Assembly: GCA_023249375.1 (NCBI GenBank)
Contig: JAHFCT010000031.1
Location: forward strand, 1 to 35,523
Source: Gemmatimonadota bacterium
GTDB lineage: Bacteria; Gemmatimonadota; Gemmatimonadetes; Gemmatimonadales; Gemmatimonadaceae
Direction of reading: 5' to 3'
DNA: 35,523 nucleotides
In this document: positions 1 through 33,165 of the stretch, piece after piece
How positions within the stretch are numbered: the stretch's first letter is position 1
Layout of the letters: every line of letters begins with the position of its first letter
Made by a program: the position numbers and the translations under genes
The notes under the pieces: generated by a model
What the model was told of the DNA's origin: nothing
The model's input: the letters and a program-made list of their open reading frames with translations, nothing else
Database searches by the model: none

Positions 1-345
<345 letters not shown>

Positions 346-353
346 TACTCCTC

Positions 354-375
354 TTTTCCTTCGCAAGAAGGAGAA
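354..375 (+). other. Hairpin with GCAA tetraloop in the 23S-5S spacer
   Basis: A 9-bp stem (TTTTCCTTC at 354-362 with GAAGGAGAA at 367-375, one G-T pair) closes a GNRA-type GCAA loop. It begins about ten bases after the 23S 3' end. Its position suggests a role in processing of the rRNA precursor, but that is inference. The 346-458 spacer contains no tRNA and no gene that I can see. Confidence 0.6.
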
Positions 376-458
376 ACTTCGCAGAGCATTCGCGACACAA
401 CGCAAATGCAGTGAGACCACAAACCACGAACACTACCCAACTCCATTGTTATCAATTC

Positions 459-574
459 GCTGGCGATTAGAGCGTCAGGGCCACACCCGTTCCCATTCCG
501 AACACGGTCGTTAAGCCTGACAGCGCCGATGGTACTCCGCCCGAGAGGGCGCGGGAGAGTAGGCCGTCGCCGGC
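459..574 (+). rRNA. rrf: 5S ribosomal RNA
   Basis: The conserved core CACCCGTTCCCATTCCGAAC lies at about 484-503, followed by ACGG, GTTAAGCC, CAGCGCCGATGGTACT and GGGAGAGTAGG. The boundaries were set from the terminal helix: GCTGGCGA at 459-466 pairs with TCGCCGGC at 567-574 (8 bp, one G-T), giving 116 nt, a normal 5S length. It follows 23S by about 113 nt and is followed directly by a terminator, so this is the end of an rrn operon. Confidence 0.97.
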
Positions 575-582
575 ACCCCTGT

Positions 583-624
583 AAACCCCCCAACCGATCA
601 CTCGGTTGGGGGGTTTGCTTTTTC
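583..624 (+). terminator. Intrinsic terminator of the rrn operon
   Basis: A perfect 15-bp stem (AAACCCCCCAACCGA at 583-597, TCGGTTGGGGGGTTT at 602-616) with a 4-nt loop is followed by GCTTTTT. It is the only hairpin in the window with both a long perfect stem and a clear T tract, as expected at the end of a highly transcribed rRNA operon. Confidence 0.95.
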
Positions 625-768
625 TCCAACCTCGACCTCAGTCGCGGCCTCGCGGCCCGCAGCTTCTTGACGTCACCCACATCGGAACTTCTGGCTCGGA
701 TACGCAACTGTACGCCATCGTGACACTTGGTCTGAGCCGCAGCGTAAGGACTGTCAGTTTATTGCGTA

Positions 769-796
769 TTGATTCATCTCGTGACGTCGATATCTT
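769..796 (+). promoter_or_regulatory. Putative sigma70-type promoter of the secreted repeat protein
   Basis: TTGATT at 769-774 (4 of 6 match to TTGACA), a 16-bp spacer and TATCTT at 791-796 (4 of 6 match to TATAAT). A transcript would start near 803, about 26 nt before the ATG at 829. This argues against a TTG start at 769, which would fall inside the -35 box. The rest of 625-768 holds nothing I recognise. Confidence 0.5.
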
Positions 797-828
797 TCGG
801 CCCTACACTCGACGACGAGCCCTCCTTG

Positions 829-3561
829 ATGTCATCGCTTTCGCGCGAGCTGCGCCTCGCGACCGTTACGCTTGCGGGCATCGCTACTGCCTTGACGATG
901 GGATGCACCGAGTCCTCTCGCGTGCTCCCGACCGATGCGACGCCCCACGAGACCGCGGTGGCGCTCAAGCGAATGCAGTCGCTGTCCGGCAGCATCACCA
1001 TCACGGGCATCTCGATGGAGACGCGCTACTGGAACAGCGCCGGCGCGCTGCCGCCGACGACCAGCGCGCAGGCCGCGTTCAATGCGCTGCCGACAAACGT
1101 CGCGGGCTACAGCAATGCGCCGGTTGCCATTCCCGATCTCGCGCGCAAGGTCCTATCCGTCGTCGTTGATCCGCTCACCGGCTACCCTGATAGCACGATT
1201 GCCGTCATTCGCAATCCGGGCGGCGCCTTTGTGAATATTGGCACGCGCATACGCGTGTCGCTCACGTCGGCGGGCGCGAGCTCCATCGGCGTTCGGTTTG
1301 GCGTGGACTGTCTCGGGTGCACGCTGCTGCTCGATAACGTGGTGATCGCGTCGAATTACAACGATCCGTGCTGGTACGGTTTCTACATGATGGACACGAG
1401 CAGCACGCTGACTCCGTTGTGGGCGACCAGTGATCAGATCATCCAGATTGTGCCGGTGAACCTGACATCCGGTGCACACACGTTTGAACTCATCGGCTTC
1501 GAGAACGGCGACGACTTCGGATACGGCGCACAGATTGACGTCGGCACGGGTTGGAAGGACGTGACGGGCCCGGTCCCGAACGTGACGCTCACCACGTCGC
1601 GCACCGGCGGCGGCGCGGGAGCGATTGTGTCGTCGCCCGCGGGTATCAATTGTGGCACGACGTGTTCGTTCGGCTTCCCGTATGGGCAACAGGTCTCGCT
1701 GAGTGCCAACGCTACGTCACCGTCGATCTTCGCCGGGTGGAGTGGCGCGTGCACGGGTCTCACGGGAGCGTGCGTCGTCACGATGGATGCCGCGAGATCG
1801 GTGACGGCGAAGTTCACGGGCACGGCGTCGGTGACGTCGATGACTGAGGAGACGCGCTACTGGGCCTCGGGGGGAACGCCGCCGAGCGCGGCGAACGCGG
1901 TGACGCTGTTCAATGCATTGCCGACGAACGTCGCGGGCTACACGAACGAACCAGTCCCCGTGACGCACATGGTCAGCAATGCGCTGCTGTTCACCGCGCC
2001 AAATGTTGGGTCGAATACGAACGTCGCGACGCGCACCGTCGTGACGATGACCTCCTCGGGCACGTCGGAGGTGTCATTGGGAGGGGACGTGGATTTCTCG
2101 GCGGGCGGCGAGATCCTCGTCGATGGCGCCGTCGCGTTCGCGAACTTCACGCCGATTGCGCCGGGAGGCATCTCGCTCGTCGCGACGGTGACGTTGCCGC
2201 CGGGTGCGCACACAATTACGATGCTCGGCTTCGAGGACTGCTGCGATGGGGGCGCTCGCTTCCAGTTCAACTATGCCCTCGGCTGGAGTGACATGGCCGC
2301 GCCGCTGCCGGCGCCGATGGCTCTGACGCTGACGATGACGGCGGGCGGGGGGGTAATCACGTCGACGCCCGCTGGCATCAACTGCGGCACGCAGTGTGCC
2401 AGCAGCTTTGCTGCCGGGACGCAGGTGACGCTCACGCAGGCGGCAAATCCGGGGTTCGTGTTCACTGGCTGGGGCGGCGCGTGCGCGGGCACGACGACGA
2501 CGTGCGTGGTCCGCATGACCGCCACAAAGACGGTGACGGCGACCTATGCGAAGAATCAGCTGACGGTAGCGAAGGCAGGCACTGGCGGCGGGACGATTAC
2601 CTCGTCGCCCGCCGGCATCAGCTGCGGGACGGTCTGCACCGCCACATTCGACGTGGGTACGGTGGTCACGCTGACGGCGGTGGCCGATGCGACGTCCAAT
2701 TTGGGAACGTGGAGCATTGCGGGCTGCACCGGCAACACCTGCGTGGTGACGATGTCGCACGCGCAGTCCGTGACACTGAACTTCGTGCGCCGCACGTACA
2801 ATCTTGGCGTCACGACGTCGGGTACGGGCACGGGGACGATCGCGTCCTCATCCGCCGGCATCAACTGCGGAACCACGTGCACCGCGACGCTGATCGAAAG
2901 CACGGTCGTGACGCTCACCGCAACACCGACGGCCGGATCGAGCTTTGCTGGCTGGTCCGGCGCCTGCACGGGAACGGGGAGTTGCACCGTGACCATGGCG
3001 GGCGCACGGACGGTCAACGCGGAGTTTACGAAGCTCGCGGACAGCACGCCGCCGACGCTCTCGTGCGTGGCGACGCCGGACGAACTCTGGCCGCCGAATC
3101 ACAAAATGGCGGACATCAAGGTGACCGTGGTGTTGACGGACGCCGGGCTGGGACCGAACGGCTTTACGCTGCTCTCCGTCACGAGCGACGAGCCGGATGA
3201 CGCGCCCGAGAAATCGACGCAGAAGAACGGCTGGAATGGCGATCGACGCGCCTGGAACAACAGCGCCGACAATAACCGGAACCGCCACAAGCGTCACGTG
3301 GGTTCCGGGCGTCACTCGGATGACGACGACTGCGGCTATGACGACGACGATGATGACGATAACGACGGCGACGGCAGCACCACCAATGACATTCAAGGGT
3401 GGGCGATCGGCACCGCTGACGTGACGGGACAGCTGCGCGCCGAGCGGGCGGGCGGCGGCAATGGCCGCGTGTATACGCTGACCTACAAGGGAACGGACAA
3501 GGCTGGCAACGCGACGACGGCGACGTGTACGGTCGTGGTGCCGCACGACCGGCGAAAGTAG
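829..3561 (+). CDS. Secreted, probable lipoprotein with duplicated N-module and four divergent InlB-type repeats
   Basis: A 910-aa exported protein of unknown function. The ATG at 829 was chosen because it starts a clean signal sequence (charged residues, then a hydrophobic run to about residue 22) ending in LTMGC, an imperfect lipobox, and because a promoter lies just upstream. A module containing ETRYW and FNALPTNVAGY occurs twice (nt about 985-1575 and 1822-2310). Four repeats of the divergent InlB B-repeat type (SSPAGINCGTTC ... FAGWSGACTG ... VTM..A.SVTA.F) occupy about 1579-1821, 2320-2556, 2557-2790 and 2791-3033; each carries two cysteine pairs. The C-terminus has an Ig/HYR-like segment with the WPPNHKM motif (about 3045-3200), interrupted by an Asp-rich run (about 3316-3378) that may bind calcium, before a final beta-rich segment. 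These repeats are usually found in surface or secreted proteins; adhesion or matrix binding is a guess. No ribosome binding site is visible. Confidence 0.85.
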   Translation: MSSLSRELRLATVTLAGIATALTMGCTESSRVLPTDATPHETAVALKRMQSLSGSITITGISMETRYWNSAGALPPTTSAQAAFNALPTNVAGYSNAPVAIPDLARKVLSVVVDPLTGYPDSTIAVIRNPGGAFVNIGTRIRVSLTSAGASSIGVRFGVDCLGCTLLLDNVVIASNYNDPCWYGFYMMDTSSTLTPLWATSDQIIQIVPVNLTSGAHTFELIGFENGDDFGYGAQIDVGTGWKDVTGPVPNVTLTTSRTGGGAGAIVSSPAGINCGTTCSFGFPYGQQVSLSANATSPSIFAGWSGACTGLTGACVVTMDAARSVTAKFTGTASVTSMTEETRYWASGGTPPSAANAVTLFNALPTNVAGYTNEPVPVTHMVSNALLFTAPNVGSNTNVATRTVVTMTSSGTSEVSLGGDVDFSAGGEILVDGAVAFANFTPIAPGGISLVATVTLPPGAHTITMLGFEDCCDGGARFQFNYALGWSDMAAPLPAPMALTLTMTAGGGVITSTPAGINCGTQCASSFAAGTQVTLTQAANPGFVFTGWGGACAGTTTTCVVRMTATKTVTATYAKNQLTVAKAGTGGGTITSSPAGISCGTVCTATFDVGTVVTLTAVADATSNLGTWSIAGCTGNTCVVTMSHAQSVTLNFVRRTYNLGVTTSGTGTGTIASSSAGINCGTTCTATLIESTVVTLTATPTAGSSFAGWSGACTGTGSCTVTMAGARTVNAEFTKLADSTPPTLSCVATPDELWPPNHKMADIKVTVVLTDAGLGPNGFTLLSVTSDEPDDAPEKSTQKNGWNGDRRAWNNSADNNRNRHKRHVGSGRHSDDDDCGYDDDDDDDNDGDGSTTNDIQGWAIGTADVTGQLRAERAGGGNGRVYTLTYKGTDKAGNATTATCTVVVPHDRRK

Positions 3562-3586
3562 GAGTCGAGGCGACGTGCTATCTTGC

Positions 3587-3615
3587 GGGCGGTGCGACGT
3601 GACGTCGCACCGCCC
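3587..3615 (+). terminator. Terminator-like hairpin before era
   Basis: GGGCGGTGCGA (3587-3597) pairs perfectly with TCGCACCGCCC (3605-3615) around a 7-nt loop. There is no T tract, so it may be a weak or factor-assisted terminator for the upstream repeat protein. A TATCTT sequence (3579-3584) precedes the hairpin, but no -35 box is evident. Confidence 0.5.
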
Positions 3616-3676
3616 GTTGGCGCTTTCGGGCGCGCGGCCAGCGCAACCCGGGCGCTCCTCCAATCGTCCTTAAGAG

Positions 3677-4558
3677 ATGCCTAAAGCTGGGATTGTTACC
3701 GTCGCCGGCGCGCCGAACGCTGGAAAGAGCACGCTGCTCAACCGACTTGTCGGCGAGCACCTCGCGATCACCAGCCCGAAGCCGCAGTCGACGCGCGACC
3801 GCATTGTCGGTATTCGCACGGCCGGCGAGGTGCAAATGGTGCTGCTCGATACGCCGGGGCTGCTTGAGCCGAAGCACGCACTGCACAAGAGCATGCGTGG
3901 CACGTCGCTGAGCGCGTTGCGCGAAGCGGACGTGGTAGTGCACGTGATTGATGCGAACGCCGAGGCGGTGCGGCCGCTGAGTGAGATCGCGGGGCTGACC
4001 GAGCCGCTGCGCGCCCCCGTGATCATTGCGCTGAACAAGTCGGACCTCCTCGACAAGAAAGCGCTGCGGGCGCTCGCCGAGGGACAGGCCGATGCCGTGT
4101 TTTTCTCGGCGCGAACGGGCGACGGAATGGAACGGCTGATTGCGGCGATCGCGGCCAAGCTGCCGGAAAGCCCGTTTCTGTACCCCGAGGACGATCTCTC
4201 GACGCAGCACCTGCGGTTCTTTGCGCGCGAGGCGGTGCGCGAGGCGGCGCTGGAGCAGCTGGATGAGGAAGTGCCGCACGCGCTGGCGTGCGAGATCGAG
4301 GAGTTCCGTGAGGGGAGTGCGCCGGTGTACATTCGTGCCACGCTTCATGTGGAGCGCGACAGCCAGAAGCGCATCCTGATTGGCAGTGGCGGCCAACGCA
4401 TCAAGGCCATTGGCATGCAGGCGCGCAAGCGGATTGAAGTGCTGGTTGGCAGCGCGGTCTACCTGGAACTGCGGGTAAAGGTGCTTCCCAACTGGCGACG
4501 GAATCCCGTGGCGCTCGCACGCCTCGGGTACTCGTTGCCTCCGGACGACAAGAAATGA
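3677..4558 (+). CDS. era: GTPase Era
   Basis: Era is a membrane-associated GTPase that binds the 3' end of 16S rRNA and is needed for 30S ribosome maturation. The protein is 293 aa, normal for the family. GTPase motifs are visible: G1 GAPNAGKS (residues 11-18), G3 DTPG (58-61), G4 NKSD (120-123) and G5 SAR (144-146). The C-terminal part holds the KH RNA-binding domain with [11 protein letters not shown] and the typical WRRN ending of the domain. Its stop codon overlaps the ATG of the next small gene (ATGA), so the two are probably translated together. No obvious ribosome binding site precedes the ATG. Identification is secure. Confidence 0.98.
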
Positions 4559-4722
4559 CGATCTCTCCGCAGCTGCTGGCCATTTTAGTCTGCCCCAAGT
4601 GCAAGGGCGAACTCACGTATCGCGACGCGGGGCCGGCGCTCGACTGTCCTGCGTGCAAGCTGCGATACCCCGTGCGCGACGACATTCCCGTGATGCTCGT
4701 CGATGAGGCATCGCCTCTCTAG
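4555..4722 (+). CDS. Trm112-like / YcaR-family small zinc protein
   Basis: A 55-aa protein. It starts at an ATG overlapping the era stop (ATGA) and contains two cysteine pairs, CPKC (residues 13-16) and CPAC (31-34), followed by [11 protein letters not shown]. This is the pattern of the Trm112/YcaR (UPF0434) family, typically about 60 aa with a DxIPxML ending. In eukaryotes and archaea Trm112 activates methyltransferases. In bacteria the small homologues are often encoded beside lipid A or RNA genes and their role is poorly defined. Its last 20 nt overlap the next gene in another frame. Confidence 0.88.
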
Positions 4723-5728
4723 GGTGCACGGTTTCGTGGTGCGCCGCTCTTCTGTTAGCCGCGCGATTGGCGCGCTGCTGCGGACGACGCTGGCGGTGAC
4801 TGCCGCCGCTGCGCCGTTGCGTGCGCAGGGTGGTTTGTCCACCGAGGGCGCGCTATTTCTGCTGGTGCCCGTTGGCGCGCGGACCGTGGGCAGCGGCCAG
4901 ACGGTAGCCACCGGTGAAGCAGGCTCGGAGTCGCTGTGGGGCAACCCGGCAGGGATCGCGCGGGTCACGCGTCCTGAGGCGGCGCTTCTCTATTCGAAGA
5001 CGGTGGTGGCCGACGGCACCGTGCTGGGCCTCGTGTATCCCGCGGGTAAGGCCGGCGTGCTGGGATTTGGCGCTCAGCTCTATGATTACGGCGCGCAGGA
5101 CTTCACCGATCAGGTCGGCACCATTGGACAGTTGCTGCCGCGCTCGATCGTGGTGGCCGCGACGTACGCGGCGACGATCGGGACGTCGATGCGGGCGGGC
5201 GTGACGTACAAGGTGGTGCAGTCGCGGCTCGACTGCACGGGACCGTGCGGCACCGTGAGCACGTTCAATGCGTCGACCAACGGCCTTGATGCCGGCGTCC
5301 AGTACGAGACGAAGCGCGCCGACAGCCTGACGTTCGGCTTTGTCCTGCGACATCTGGGACTCAAGCTGCAGGTGAACGACAATGCGCAGTCTGATCCGCT
5401 GCCGGCGCGCGTGCATCTTGGCGTGAGCGCGCTTGTGCCGGCGATGGCGAAGGCGCTGCCCGGTGCGGAGCTGCGATGGGCGGTGGAGATCGTGAATCGC
5501 ACGTCGCTGAATGATCCGGCGTTTCGGCTGGGCGCTGAGCTCGGGCTGCAGAAACAACTGTACTTGCGAGCCGGGTACGCCTCGGGCACGGGCGACGCCA
5601 CGGGCCCCGCCATCGGGCTCGGTTTTGTCCGAGGGAAACTCGGGCTCGACTTTGCCCGTGTGTTCGGCGGATTTTCATCGGATGCGGGACAGCCGCCGAC
5701 CTATCTCACGCTTCGGGTGAGCTGGTGA
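4703..5728 (+). CDS. PorV/UPF0164-like outer-membrane beta-barrel protein
   Basis: A 341-aa exported protein. An N-terminal signal sequence with a basic start and an Ala-rich core ends near RAQ-GG (about residue 42). The mature part begins with the [18 protein letters not shown] and [10 protein letters not shown] pattern typical of PorV/PorQ and UPF0164 barrels, in which the G.NPAG segment lies in the first strands. Alternating hydrophobic strands and an ending in LTLRVSW (terminal aromatic residue) fit an outer-membrane beta-barrel assembled by BamA. PorV is a type IX secretion component in Bacteroidota, but the wider family has no single function, so secretion is not claimed. The ATG at 4703 lies inside the upstream gene; a GTG at 4736 would also keep the signal peptide. 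Its stop overlaps the next start (GTGA). Confidence 0.8.
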
Positions 5729-6552
5729 GACGCGAAGCGATCAGCGTCATGGCCGCCGTGAGCCTCGTGCTGGTGAGCACGGTGGGCCGACCCGCGCTGG
5801 GTCAGCGCGTTGCGTCGTCGACCATGTCGCGACCGGCAGCACCCATGGGGACGATGCGCGGCGGTTCGCCTTTGGGAGAGGCCGAGCGGCGTCGCTGGGC
5901 GCCGGTGGCGTCGATGCTGCTGCCCGGCATGGGTCAGGCGTTGCTGCACCAAGATCGCTTCATCGCGTATCTGGCGCTGGAGGCGTGGTCGGTGCTTGAG
6001 TTCTCGAATCAGCGCACGGAGGCGCGGCGGCAGCAGAGCCGATATCGCGGCCTGGCGCGCGACGTGGCGCGTTCGCTCTATGGCCAGGTGCGGCCCGTGG
6101 GATCGTGGGCCTACTACGAATCGATGGAGCACTACCTGGAAAGCGGAGTCTTCGACCGCGAGCCAGGCGGCAACGTGGATCCGGATCTCGACGAGAGCAC
6201 GTACAACGGTGCGATGTGGCTGCTGGCCCGTACGACGTACTGGACGGATCCAGCACTAGCGCCGTCAACGGAGAGCGCCGAGTACCGGCACGCCATCAAT
6301 TTCTATCTGGACCGGGCGGTTCGTTCCGAGTATCGGTGGACCTGGCGGAATGCACAGTTGGAGCAGGACCTGTACATACGCACGATTCGCCGGAGCAATA
6401 TCTCGTTCCGCGCCGCCCGCGCGGCGCTCGGGGCGGTGCTCGCCAACCACGTGCTGTCGGCGGTCGATGCATTCGTGACGCTGCGTGTTGAGGGACTGGA
6501 GGGTGGCAGTCCCGGAAGCTTCGCGTTGCGGGGCAGTGTTCCGTTCCGATAG
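5725..6552 (+). CDS. DUF5683-like exported protein of unknown function
   Basis: A 275-aa protein starting at a GTG that overlaps the previous stop codon (GTGA). Residues 1 to about 27 look like a signal peptide (basic start, then a hydrophobic stretch ending near GQR). A short segment with SMLLPGMGQ and a following hydrophobic helix resembles the P-G-x-G-Q helix of DUF5683-type proteins. The central part is rich in Arg, Trp and Tyr (for example the SWAYYESMEHYLESG region). A second hydrophobic region lies near residues 235-255. Tight coupling to the PorV-like gene suggests a shared envelope role. I cannot assign a biochemical function; the DUF5683 link rests on this short motif only. Confidence 0.7.
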   Translation: MRREAISVMAAVSLVLVSTVGRPALGQRVASSTMSRPAAPMGTMRGGSPLGEAERRRWAPVASMLLPGMGQALLHQDRFIAYLALEAWSVLEFSNQRTEARRQQSRYRGLARDVARSLYGQVRPVGSWAYYESMEHYLESGVFDREPGGNVDPDLDESTYNGAMWLLARTTYWTDPALAPSTESAEYRHAINFYLDRAVRSEYRWTWRNAQLEQDLYIRTIRRSNISFRAARAALGAVLANHVLSAVDAFVTLRVEGLEGGSPGSFALRGSVPFR

Positions 6553-9046: not shown

Positions 9047-10163
9047 ATGGCAGACAGCGAACGCGCAAAATCCCTGCGGCAGGATGAGGAACGGCTCACC
9101 GAGCTGCGGAGGTTCCTTTGACCTCGAAGGCCGGCGTTCGCGCCTGACGCAACTCGAGACTGAAATGGCGGCGCCCGGATTCTGGGATGCCGCGGAGCGC
9201 GCCCAGGGTTCGGTGCAGGAAATGAAACTGCTGAAAGGGTGGACCGATCCCTTCGACAAGCTGTGGGGACGTGTGCAATCGGCGCTCGAGCTGGACGAAA
9301 TGCTCGAGAGCGAGCCCGATGTCGAGATGATCGCCGAAGTGGAGCGCGAGACGGCGGCGCTGCGCGAGGACGTGGAGGCCTTCAAGCTCAGGTCGCTGCT
9401 CCAGGGGCGCGACGACTTCCGAGACGCGCAAGTGGAAATCAGCGCCGGCGCCGGCGGCACCGAGGCGCAGGACTGGGCGCAGATGCTCATGCGCATGTAC
9501 ACGCGCTGGGCGGAGCGAAAGGGCTATGGCGTGGAGATCATTGACCTCTCCGACGGTGAAGAGGCCGGCATCAAGGGCGCCGTGCTTGAGATCAAGGGAA
9601 TGTACGCGTACGGCTTCCTGCGGCCGGAAGCCGGCGTGCATCGCCTGGTGCGCATCTCGCCCTTCGATTCGCAGGCGCGGCGGCATACGAGCTTCGCGTC
9701 GATCTTCATCTACCCGGTCGTGGACACCGAGATCAACATTGAGATCCGCGAAGAGGACATCAAGATGGATGTCTTCCGCGCGAGCGGCGCCGGCGGGCAG
9801 CACGTGAACAAGACGTCGTCCGCAGTGCGGCTGACGCATATTCCGTCGGGGTTCGTGGTGGCGTGCCAGCAGGAGCGCAGTCAGGGGAAGAACCGCGCGC
9901 AGGCGATGAAGCAGCTGAAGAACAAGCTGTACCAGATGGAGCTGGACAAGCAGGCGGCGGTGAAGGCGAAGCTCGACGCGAACAAGCAGGACGTGACGTT
10001 CGGCAGCCAGATCCGCAGCTACGTGTTTCAGCCATACACCATGGTCAACGATCACCGCACGGAGCTGAAGATCACCGACGTGCAGAAGGTGATGGACGGC
10101 GCGATCGATCCGTTCATCGAAGCGTACCTGAAGCTGGCCGGCAACGCCGGGGCGTCCCGATGA
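9047..10163 (+). CDS. prfB: Peptide chain release factor 2 (programmed +1 frameshift)
   Basis: RF2 ends translation at UGA and UAA codons by triggering peptidyl-tRNA hydrolysis. The start is the ATG at 9047: 24 codons are read to an in-frame TGA at 9119-9121, and a +1 shift at CTT-TGA-C joins this to the frame that continues from GAC at 9120. The combined product is 371 aa, normal for RF2, and the join LRRFL-DLEGRR matches the family N-terminus. The stop-codon recognition tripeptide SPF is at residues 204-206 (RISPFDSQARRHTSF) and the catalytic GGQ at 249-251. A start at 9084 would miss the true N-terminus. Expression is autoregulated: low RF2 favours frameshifting at its own cognate stop. 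The stop overlaps the lysS ATG (ATGA). Confidence 0.96.
9108..9122 (+). other. prfB programmed +1 frameshift site
   Basis: GGAGG (9108-9112), a 3-nt spacer TTC, the slippery CTT (9116-9118), TGA (9119-9121) and a following C (9122). The order and spacing match the E. coli site, where a Shine-Dalgarno-like sequence three bases before CUU-UGA-C promotes the shift. The amino-acid sequence is continuous with RF2 only if the shift occurs. Confidence 0.95.
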
Positions 10164-31476: not shown

Positions 31477-33090
31477 GTGAGCATCGCCCCGCCCAAGCCG
31501 GTGTCGCCGCGGAGCGGCGGCGGGGCCGCGCTGGTCGCCGCGGGGATTCTACTGAGCCGGCTCTTTGGGCTCGTGCGCAACCGGCTGCTCGGGCACTACC
31601 TGGGCACGAGCGATGCCGGCGATGCGTTCAACGCCGCCATTCGCATTCCCAACATCCTGCAGAATCTCTTTGGCGAAGGCGTGCTGTCGGCGTCGTTCAT
31701 TCCGACGTACAGCCGTTTGCTTGCCGAAGGCAATGAAGAGGAGGCGGGTCGGGTCGCCGGTGCGATTGGCACGCTGCTCGCGCTCACGAGCGCGGTGCTG
31801 GTGCTTGTCGGCATTGTGCTCACGCCGTACGCGGTGGCGATCATCGCGCCCGGGTTCGCCGGTGAGAAGCGCGCGCTGACCATTCACCTCGTGCAGCTGA
31901 TCTTCCCGGGTGTTGGCCTGCTCGTGCTTTCCGCCTGGTCACTTGGCGTGCTCAACTCGCACCGTCGGTTCTTCCTGCCGTACGCCTCGCCGGTGGCGAT
32001 GAATGTCGTGATGATCGGCGCGCTGCTCGGCTTTGGTCCGTCGCTCGCTGGCGACGTCGACGGACAGTCGCGCCTCGCCGCCGTGCTCGCGTGGGCGTCG
32101 GTGCTCGGCAGCGTCGCCCAATTGGGCGTTCAGCTGCCGACAGTGCTCCGTGTTGACCGCCGATTGCGCCTGCACCTCGGCACGGCGAACAAGAATGTGC
32201 GCGTGGTCCTCGCGCAGTTCGCGCCCGTCTTCGTTGGGCGCGGCGTCGTGCAGATCAGCGCGTACGTGGACAATGTGCTGGCGTCGCTCGTGAGCGGCGG
32301 GGCGGTGGCCGTGCTGTCGTACGCGCAGGTGATCACAATGCTCCCCGTGTCGCTCTTTGGAATGTCGGTGTCGGCGGCCGAACTGCCCGCGATGTCCGGA
32401 ACCATTGGCAGCGATGACGACGTGGCGCGCGTGCTGCGCCAGCGGCTCTCCGACGGGCTGCATCGCATTGCGTTCTATGTCGTGCCGTCGTCGATGGCGT
32501 TCGTGGCGATCGGCGACATCGTGGGCGCGACGTTGTATCAGTCGGGCAAGTTCGGGCGCGCCGACGTGATCTGGATGTGGGGGGTGCTGGCAGGCTCCGC
32601 GATCGGATTGCTCGCCGGAACGCTGGGACGGTTGTACGCCTCCACGTGGTACGCGCTGCGCAATACGCGCACCCCGCTGAAGTTCGCGCTGCTCCGCGTG
32701 GCGCTCACGCTGGGCCTCGGATGGGCGGCCGCGTTGTGGCTCCCCGGCGCCGTGGGGATCGACGCGCGGTGGGGCGTCGCCGGTCTGACCGCGTCGGCGG
32801 GCGTGGCTGCGTGGGTGGAATGTGTGCTGCTCCGTCGCTCATTGGTGCCGCGCATCGGTGACGTTCGTGTGGACCGCCCGTATCAGGCGAAGCTATGGGG
32901 GGCGGCGCTTGTGGCGTCGTTGGTCGCGTGGGGTGCCAAGCTCGTGCTCGGTGTGGAGCATCCGCTGGTGCTCGGCGTCGCCGCGCTGCCGGCCTACGGA
33001 CTTGCCTACCTCGGTGCCACGGCTTCGATGGCCATCCCGGAGGCGTCGGCGATGGCGGGACGCGTTCGGCGGCTGATTGGCGGGCGCTGA
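31477..33090 (+). CDS. murJ: Lipid II flippase MurJ
   Basis: MurJ moves the peptidoglycan precursor lipid II across the inner membrane. It is 537 aa, highly hydrophobic, with about 14 predicted membrane segments (MATE/MOP exporter superfamily). Family features include GILLSRLFGLVRNRLLG with the conserved RxxGxxR pattern at the first helix, DAFNAAIRIPNILQNLFGEG with the FNxxxRxPNxxxxLFxEG pattern, and SASFIPTYSRL. The GTG start is 40 nt after bshC in a G+C-rich stretch without a clear ribosome binding site. The last codons run into a 14-bp tandem repeat. Confidence 0.96.
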   Translation: MSIAPPKPVSPRSGGGAALVAAGILLSRLFGLVRNRLLGHYLGTSDAGDAFNAAIRIPNILQNLFGEGVLSASFIPTYSRLLAEGNEEEAGRVAGAIGTLLALTSAVLVLVGIVLTPYAVAIIAPGFAGEKRALTIHLVQLIFPGVGLLVLSAWSLGVLNSHRRFFLPYASPVAMNVVMIGALLGFGPSLAGDVDGQSRLAAVLAWASVLGSVAQLGVQLPTVLRVDRRLRLHLGTANKNVRVVLAQFAPVFVGRGVVQISAYVDNVLASLVSGGAVAVLSYAQVITMLPVSLFGMSVSAAELPAMSGTIGSDDDVARVLRQRLSDGLHRIAFYVVPSSMAFVAIGDIVGATLYQSGKFGRADVIWMWGVLAGSAIGLLAGTLGRLYASTWYALRNTRTPLKFALLRVALTLGLGWAAALWLPGAVGIDARWGVAGLTASAGVAAWVECVLLRRSLVPRIGDVRVDRPYQAKLWGAALVASLVAWGAKLVLGVEHPLVLGVAALPAYGLAYLGATASMAIPEASAMAGRVRRLIGGR

Positions 33091-33165
33091 CCAACGGGCG
33101 CTGACCAACAGGCGCTGACCAACGGGCCCTGAGCAACGGGCCCTGAGCAACGGGCGCTGACCTTC
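33082..33165 (+). repeat. 14-bp tandem repeat, six units, spanning the murJ stop
   Basis: Units of consensus GGGCGCTGACCAAC at 33082, 33096, 33110, 33124, 33138 and 33152. Units 1 and 2 are identical; unit 3 differs by one base; units 4 and 5 are identical to each other (GGGCCCTGAGCAAC); unit 6 ends in TTC. The murJ stop codon is the TGA in unit 1. The array ends three bases before the TAGATT ahead of uvrC. The pairwise homogenised units suggest recent slippage or recombination. Confidence 0.95.

Follow-up and report, generated by a model that had tools for sequence, protein, structure and literature searches.

A probable surface protein of a Gemmatimonadota bacterium with two predicted PA14-like modules that divide a tryptophan loop and a cysteine pair

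The locus and its distribution

The window, by which we mean the whole 35,523-nucleotide stretch of DNA that was analysed, is one contig of a 3.8-Mb draft genome in 120 contigs from a Gemmatimonadota bacterium. It begins with the 3' end of a 23S rRNA gene (1-348) and a 5S rRNA gene (459-575), which are followed by the open reading frame (ORF) studied here and, directly after it, by era (3677-4558). The ORF is a single open frame that runs from an ATG to a stop codon at 3559-3561, with a TTG at position 769 upstream of this ATG in the same frame. Its features are collected in Table 1. Elsewhere in the window, prfB (release factor 2) lies at 9047-10163. Its frame, opened by the ATG at 9047, runs into CTTTGA at 9116-9121 immediately behind an AGG, which we take to be the usual +1 frameshift site, an ordinary arrangement for this gene. 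There is also a tandem array at 33081-33162, with 5.9 copies of a 14-base unit at 91% matches.

Table 1. Features of the ORF, in window coordinates
Feature	Position	Strand	Basis
ORF, 910 aa plus stop; probable lipoprotein with the order A, repeat, B, three repeats, C-terminal region	829..3561	+	910-aa frame; relatives in genus
N-terminal hydrophobic segment with Cys26 at its end	829..906	+	sequence reading
Module A, 191 aa; Trp-bearing loop NDPCWYG, without Cys-Cys	1000..1572	+	NF038118 match, PA14-like predicted fold
InlB-type repeat 1 (PF18998), four Cys	1582..1821	+	Pfam
Module B, 158 aa; GFEDCCDGG motif, without Trp loop	1831..2304	+	NF038118 match, PA14-like predicted fold
InlB-type repeat 2, four Cys	2323..2553	+	Pfam
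InlB-type repeat 3, four Cys	2560..2790	+	Pfam
InlB-type repeat 4, four Cys	2803..3033	+	Pfam
C-terminal region, perhaps Ig-like; Asp/Asn-rich low-complexity insert at ~3220-3380	3040..3558	+	PF16403, sequence reading

The first-pass annotation of this DNA had placed one InlB-type repeat after the first copy of a duplicated module and three after the second, which is how the four stretches matched by the Pfam profile PF18998 are arranged (75.1 bits for the ORF against a cut-off of 23.6). The repeats also score above the cut-off of TIGR02543 from NCBIfam. The C-terminal region matches PF16403 below the Pfam cut-off (E 0.018) and has no NCBIfam match. Note that L024 and L025, two relatives in the genus, carry an acidic stretch at the C-terminus, as opposed to the internal Asp/Asn-rich insert of the window protein. 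Reading of the N-termini shows a hydrophobic stretch followed by a Cys, itself preceded by G, A or S, in all five complete proteins, while the strict lipobox pattern, as judged by eye in the complete proteins, fits only L026 (LSSC). This sequence pattern suggests that the protein is likely exported and is probably a lipid-anchored lipoprotein. Apart from the features of its modules it is an ordinary large surface protein.

At a threshold of E 1e-5 the protein is matched in seven of the 11 genomes of the genus, G009 having a protein 100% identical to it and five further genomes having matches, one of which is partial. The G009 protein was not counted as independent of the window protein, because its contig (L052, isolate nzgw229) equals window positions 1-6205 at 6196 of 6205 bases. 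Eight of the nine differences fall at 5952-6084, and L052 and the window are possibly one contig placed in two bins. The gene lies beside era in seven of the eight genomes with era, or in six of seven if G000 and G009 count once. It has a 5S rRNA gene upstream in the window and at L024, L026 and L027, and none was found upstream on the G010 contig (L025, L055). In G001 (L090) the 5S rRNA gene ends at 1396 (1280-1396) and the era match starts at 1501; as the ~100 bases between them leave no room for the gene, this is an empty site, either by loss or by lack of gain. G003, G004 and G006, in which the protein has no match, give none for era at E 1e-20 either, and these drafts may simply lack the locus.

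Beyond this locus, the only further match found in the window's own genome is weak (E 0.0014, two stops) and is to repeat sequence. An 1818-aa open frame at 106-4308 of contig C43 in G007 (L034, L039, L040) matches the window protein several times over its InlB-type repeats. Module B occurs in five of 298 genomes, and in one of 119 genera, in a sample of the phylum at E 1e-4. Plasmid sequences gave no match, viral contigs gave 32 pattern matches of which none was confirmed, and 68 pattern matches in genome contigs came down to seven loci, six of this genus and one of a gammaproteobacterium. Named records that carry the protein include Gemmatimonas sp. and Gemmatimonadetes metagenome-assembled genomes.

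Reality and age of the duplication

The internal duplication described in the first-pass annotation is real. Positions 1078-1110 and 1909-1941 are equal at 30 of 33 bases with an offset of 831 nt, or 277 codons, exactly as given there, and two matches of that kind appeared in none of 100 dinucleotide-preserving shuffles. The similarity is wider than this 33-base stretch, since BLASTP aligns copy A (1000-1593) with copy B (1834-2322) over 193 positions, 63 of them identical (E 1e-25).

The same annotation had taken the high local match to mean that the duplication was either fairly recent or under strong constraint, and had proposed a survey of copy number in relatives. Such a survey finds both A and B in all five complete proteins of the genus (the window protein, L024, L025, L026 and L027); a further one, L028, is cut at its contig start and begins inside its last copy, and the genus set therefore contains 11 modules, five A and six B. 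One InlB-type repeat follows A in each of the five complete proteins, and B is followed by three in the window, L025 and L026 and by four in L024 and L027, as counted in the relatives with a profile built from the window's own repeats after dropping domains with an i-E of at least 0.3. In a tree of 20 modules, 11 from the genus and nine from outside it, the A copies form one group (99/99), and a branch supported at 97/95 separates the nine outside modules, including L060 which is flagged as a long branch, from A plus B. The pairs window-L024 and L025-L026 recur among both the A and the B modules. The B copies form one group in 30% of bootstrap trees, and two changes are needed to make them a group of their own.

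The recent half of the earlier reading is not supported, given the presence of both copies in diverged proteins of the genus and the grouping of the A copies. With A and B present together in four other proteins of the genus that have diverged, an old duplication with local constraint fits these sequences better. We also considered gene conversion between the copies, which is not seen when pairings within and across species are compared: the identity of A to B is no higher within a protein than between species, and pairings as high as the true A-B ones number 21 of 120 (amino acids) and 95 of 120 (nucleotides) for the N-terminal segment, and 41 of 120 and 89 of 120, respectively, for the rest of the module.

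Family assignment and predicted fold of the modules

The module, which the first-pass annotation did not recognise, can be placed with a catalogued family and, by prediction, with a well-known fold class. Profile searches with each module alone, a check that had been suggested there, matched NF038118, the NCBIfam 'CCXG family PEP-CTERM protein', below its cut-off of 90 bits in both cases (A, E 3.1e-7; B, E 6.3e-13, 49.4 bits), as does the whole protein (E 4.2e-20, 72.3 bits). All 11 genus modules match this profile (best E 2.7e-18), and every one of these matches stays below the cut-off, as do those in all 60 genomes scanned. The genus matches fall within positions 2-188 of the 199 in the profile, and that of the window protein stops at position 187-188; its C-terminus reads VVVPHDRRK and the PEP-CTERM tail is absent. 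The matches listed outside the genus fall within profile positions 124-199 and mostly represent the sorting tail. A module with a PEP-CTERM tail does occur in L060, from the class of gammaproteobacterium HTCC5015. In the same class the module is also found in open frames 1154-1194 aa long, and all three that were read to their end lack the tail. These three (L095, L096 and L097) have the module near the N-terminus and share the C-terminus NWALLADP.LP.Q.

Sequence searches of solved structures gave three matches, the best being a fermitin at E 0.013, with no PA14 domain among them, and a further search gave a single match at E 0.62; folds therefore had to be compared. AlphaFold2 models were built from alignments of 12 sequences, comprising the window and loci from the pattern search, and reached a pLDDT of 82.5 and pTM of 0.82 for module B and a pLDDT of 76.0 and pTM of 0.78 for module A. 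Note that residues 129-135 of the module A model have a pLDDT under 50, and that the Trp loop lies in or adjoins this low-confidence stretch. Both models best match PA14 sugar-binding domains by Foldseek, which answers the structure prediction that had been proposed. The top match of B is 6m8m, the PA14 sugar-binding domain of an RTX adhesin (E 1.6e-5, TMq 0.63), and those of A are structures of sugar-bound MpPA14 (E 3.7e-5, TMq 0.52). Comparison with 6m8m by VIA gave Z 11.6 over 145 residues at rmsd 3.1 for B and Z 11.0 over 149 residues at rmsd 3.3 for A, scores that are tied with those of adhesin Cea1A and of an anti-sigma factor protein domain. Enzymes and the RetS sensor follow the lectins in the VIA lists for both modules. 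The anti-sigma factor domain (6qe7) equals the lectins in score, with Z 11.8 for B and 10.8 for A, so function cannot be read from the shared fold.

A single hhalign comparison of the 20 modules with 15 Pfam-PA14 domains, taken from 21 matches found, gave 90.9% (E 1.1e-6) over 74 columns that include the stretches DG..i..dW and L.aG.H.i....FE. The Pfam PA14 profile (PF07691) itself finds, up to an E of 1, none of the 11 modules from the genus, and it matches one of five outside members (E 0.00067). Modules A and B are thus predicted from the models to be PA14-like beta-sandwiches, for which we do not claim membership in Pfam PA14. None of the 20 modules has the Asp-cis-Asp calcium motif known from PA14 lectins; each has a single Asp in the aligned column, the column being the one picked by the alignment. 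A match to a well-described family of known function, which the first-pass annotation had considered, was found in part: the fold class is well described, and no paper on NF038118 or on CCXG PEP-CTERM proteins was found in a limited literature search. The same limited search found none that joins PA14 plus PEP-CTERM, or the InlB B-repeat, with a Gemmatimonad.

Division of two motifs between the copies

In all nine outside modules the same domain holds both a [DN]LWW loop and a Cys-Cys pair; note that these modules were collected with the CCXG profile, which favours modules that have both motifs. Matches over the NF038118 cut-off came from three of 369 genomes and from seven of 61 genomes, with G451 in both sets. 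A CC pattern found the pair in eight of the nine, and the ninth, in L060 (EGCCNG), was seen in the alignment. In the genus the two motifs are divided between the copies. The A modules have the Trp loop in five of five cases (NDPCWYG, DDPTWYG, NNPWWKG, NDLWWNG and NDPFWFG) and neither the Cys-Cys pair nor the CC.G motif in any; the Trp pattern also matched two places outside the loop, in the A modules of L025 and L026. The six B modules all have the Cys-Cys pair, as CCDG in five and as CCDA in L028, and none has the Trp loop, in place of which the L028 module carries TDLCCG. This division is the one feature of the protein that a specialist might not expect, and what we say of its function below is inferred. 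Five of the six B modules have no cysteines other than the adjacent pair, which leaves a vicinal bond as the only disulfide possible inside the domain.

The two motifs have plausible counterparts in a known lectin. For MpPA14, PMC8092209 describes a sugar held by Asp110-Asp111, loop 9 (Ser130) and loop 11 (Gln156, Gly157 and Asp159), the loop contacts lying at +20 and +46 from Asp110. Counted from the invariant Asp88 of the window's module B, the place that a Trp loop would take is at about +19 and Cys137-138 are at +49/50. By this spacing and by the profile alignment, the Trp loop and the Cys-Cys pair appear to resemble loops 9 and 11 of MpPA14. A vicinal disulfide in contact with a bound arabinofuranose is described in PMC12102755.

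The explanation that we favour, by a modest balance of probability, is a cell-surface protein, probably a lipoprotein, in which two PA14-like domains set among Cys-bearing InlB-type repeats bind glycans, which would belong to the cell's own matrix, to some surface or to a neighbour. On this view the ligand would be contacted by the Trp loop in A and by the Cys-Cys loop in B, where the adjacent cysteines would be joined in a vicinal disulfide able to support a sugar ring. Each copy would have retained one of the two loops after the duplication, so that A and B probably bind different ligands or touch them in different ways. A more specific version, in which an ancestral PA14-like site was divided such that A binds through an aromatic loop and B through a vicinal-disulfide platform, giving two complementary glycan sites, seems to us unlikely as it stands. 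If true, it would mean a divided site within one chain, and PA14-like glycan binding without the Asp-cis-Asp calcium site.

A rather less probable reading than glycan binding, yet the strongest of its competitors, is that A and B are structural sandwiches that lack a specific ligand and whose conserved loops stabilise the fold or link the copies. The absent Asp-cis-Asp motif, the position of the modules among plain InlB-type repeats and the varying loop lengths are all consistent with this. However, the Cys-Cys pair is kept in six of six B modules though identity to the window's B drops to 35%, and a Trp-type loop is kept in five of five A modules. That the adjacent cysteines are instead a redox or metal switch, by which the protein senses envelope conditions and not glycans, is improbable: the pair is isolated in its domain, PMC12102755 states that vicinal disulfides can act as switches, and the fold matches include the periplasmic sensor domain of RetS (Z 9.3), but Pfam and NCBIfam detect no signalling domain in the protein and copy A has no Cys pair. 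Very improbable indeed is a relic of a PEP-CTERM/exosortase system, a once exosortase-sorted module in a gene now losing function, for although PEP-CTERM proteins give the profile family its name, the exosortase PF09721 is found in none of the 11 genus genomes at E 1e-5 and NF038118 is matched many times over its C-terminal part in several other genera, all four complete relatives are open frames free of internal stops at 47-52% identity over their best pieces, which suggests selection, and the three large outside proteins all carry the module without a PEP-CTERM tail.

The preferred reading of glycan-binding, PA14-like domains would provide the NF038118 domain with a fold class and a testable site, and the A/B pair, as it occurs naturally, lets the two loops be compared readily. 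The domain is also seen here in proteins lacking the PEP-CTERM tail both in the genus and in the three outside proteins.

Among known systems, the window protein is close to the NF038118 family, with which it has in common an ETR-type N-terminal motif, also seen in L060, a D..GG.L..DG core and, to some extent, the Trp loop and CC.G motif. It differs in scoring below the 90-bit cut-off, in having two module copies and no PEP-CTERM tail, in dividing the signature loops between these copies and in the Cys that ends its signal-like segment. The PA14 domain (PF07691), as found in MpPA14, RTX adhesin lectins, yeast Flo and the Candida Epa adhesins, is similar in predicted fold and profile alignment, whereas its Pfam profile does not reach the genus modules, and these lack Asp-cis-Asp and have a Cys-Cys pair or a Trp loop near the usual contact loops. 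Finally, in regards to surface proteins with InlB-type repeats (PF18998, TIGR02543), the window protein scores above the cut-offs of both profiles and has four repeats by PF18998, but its repeats differ in having four Cys apiece and in being placed between the PA14-like modules and behind them.
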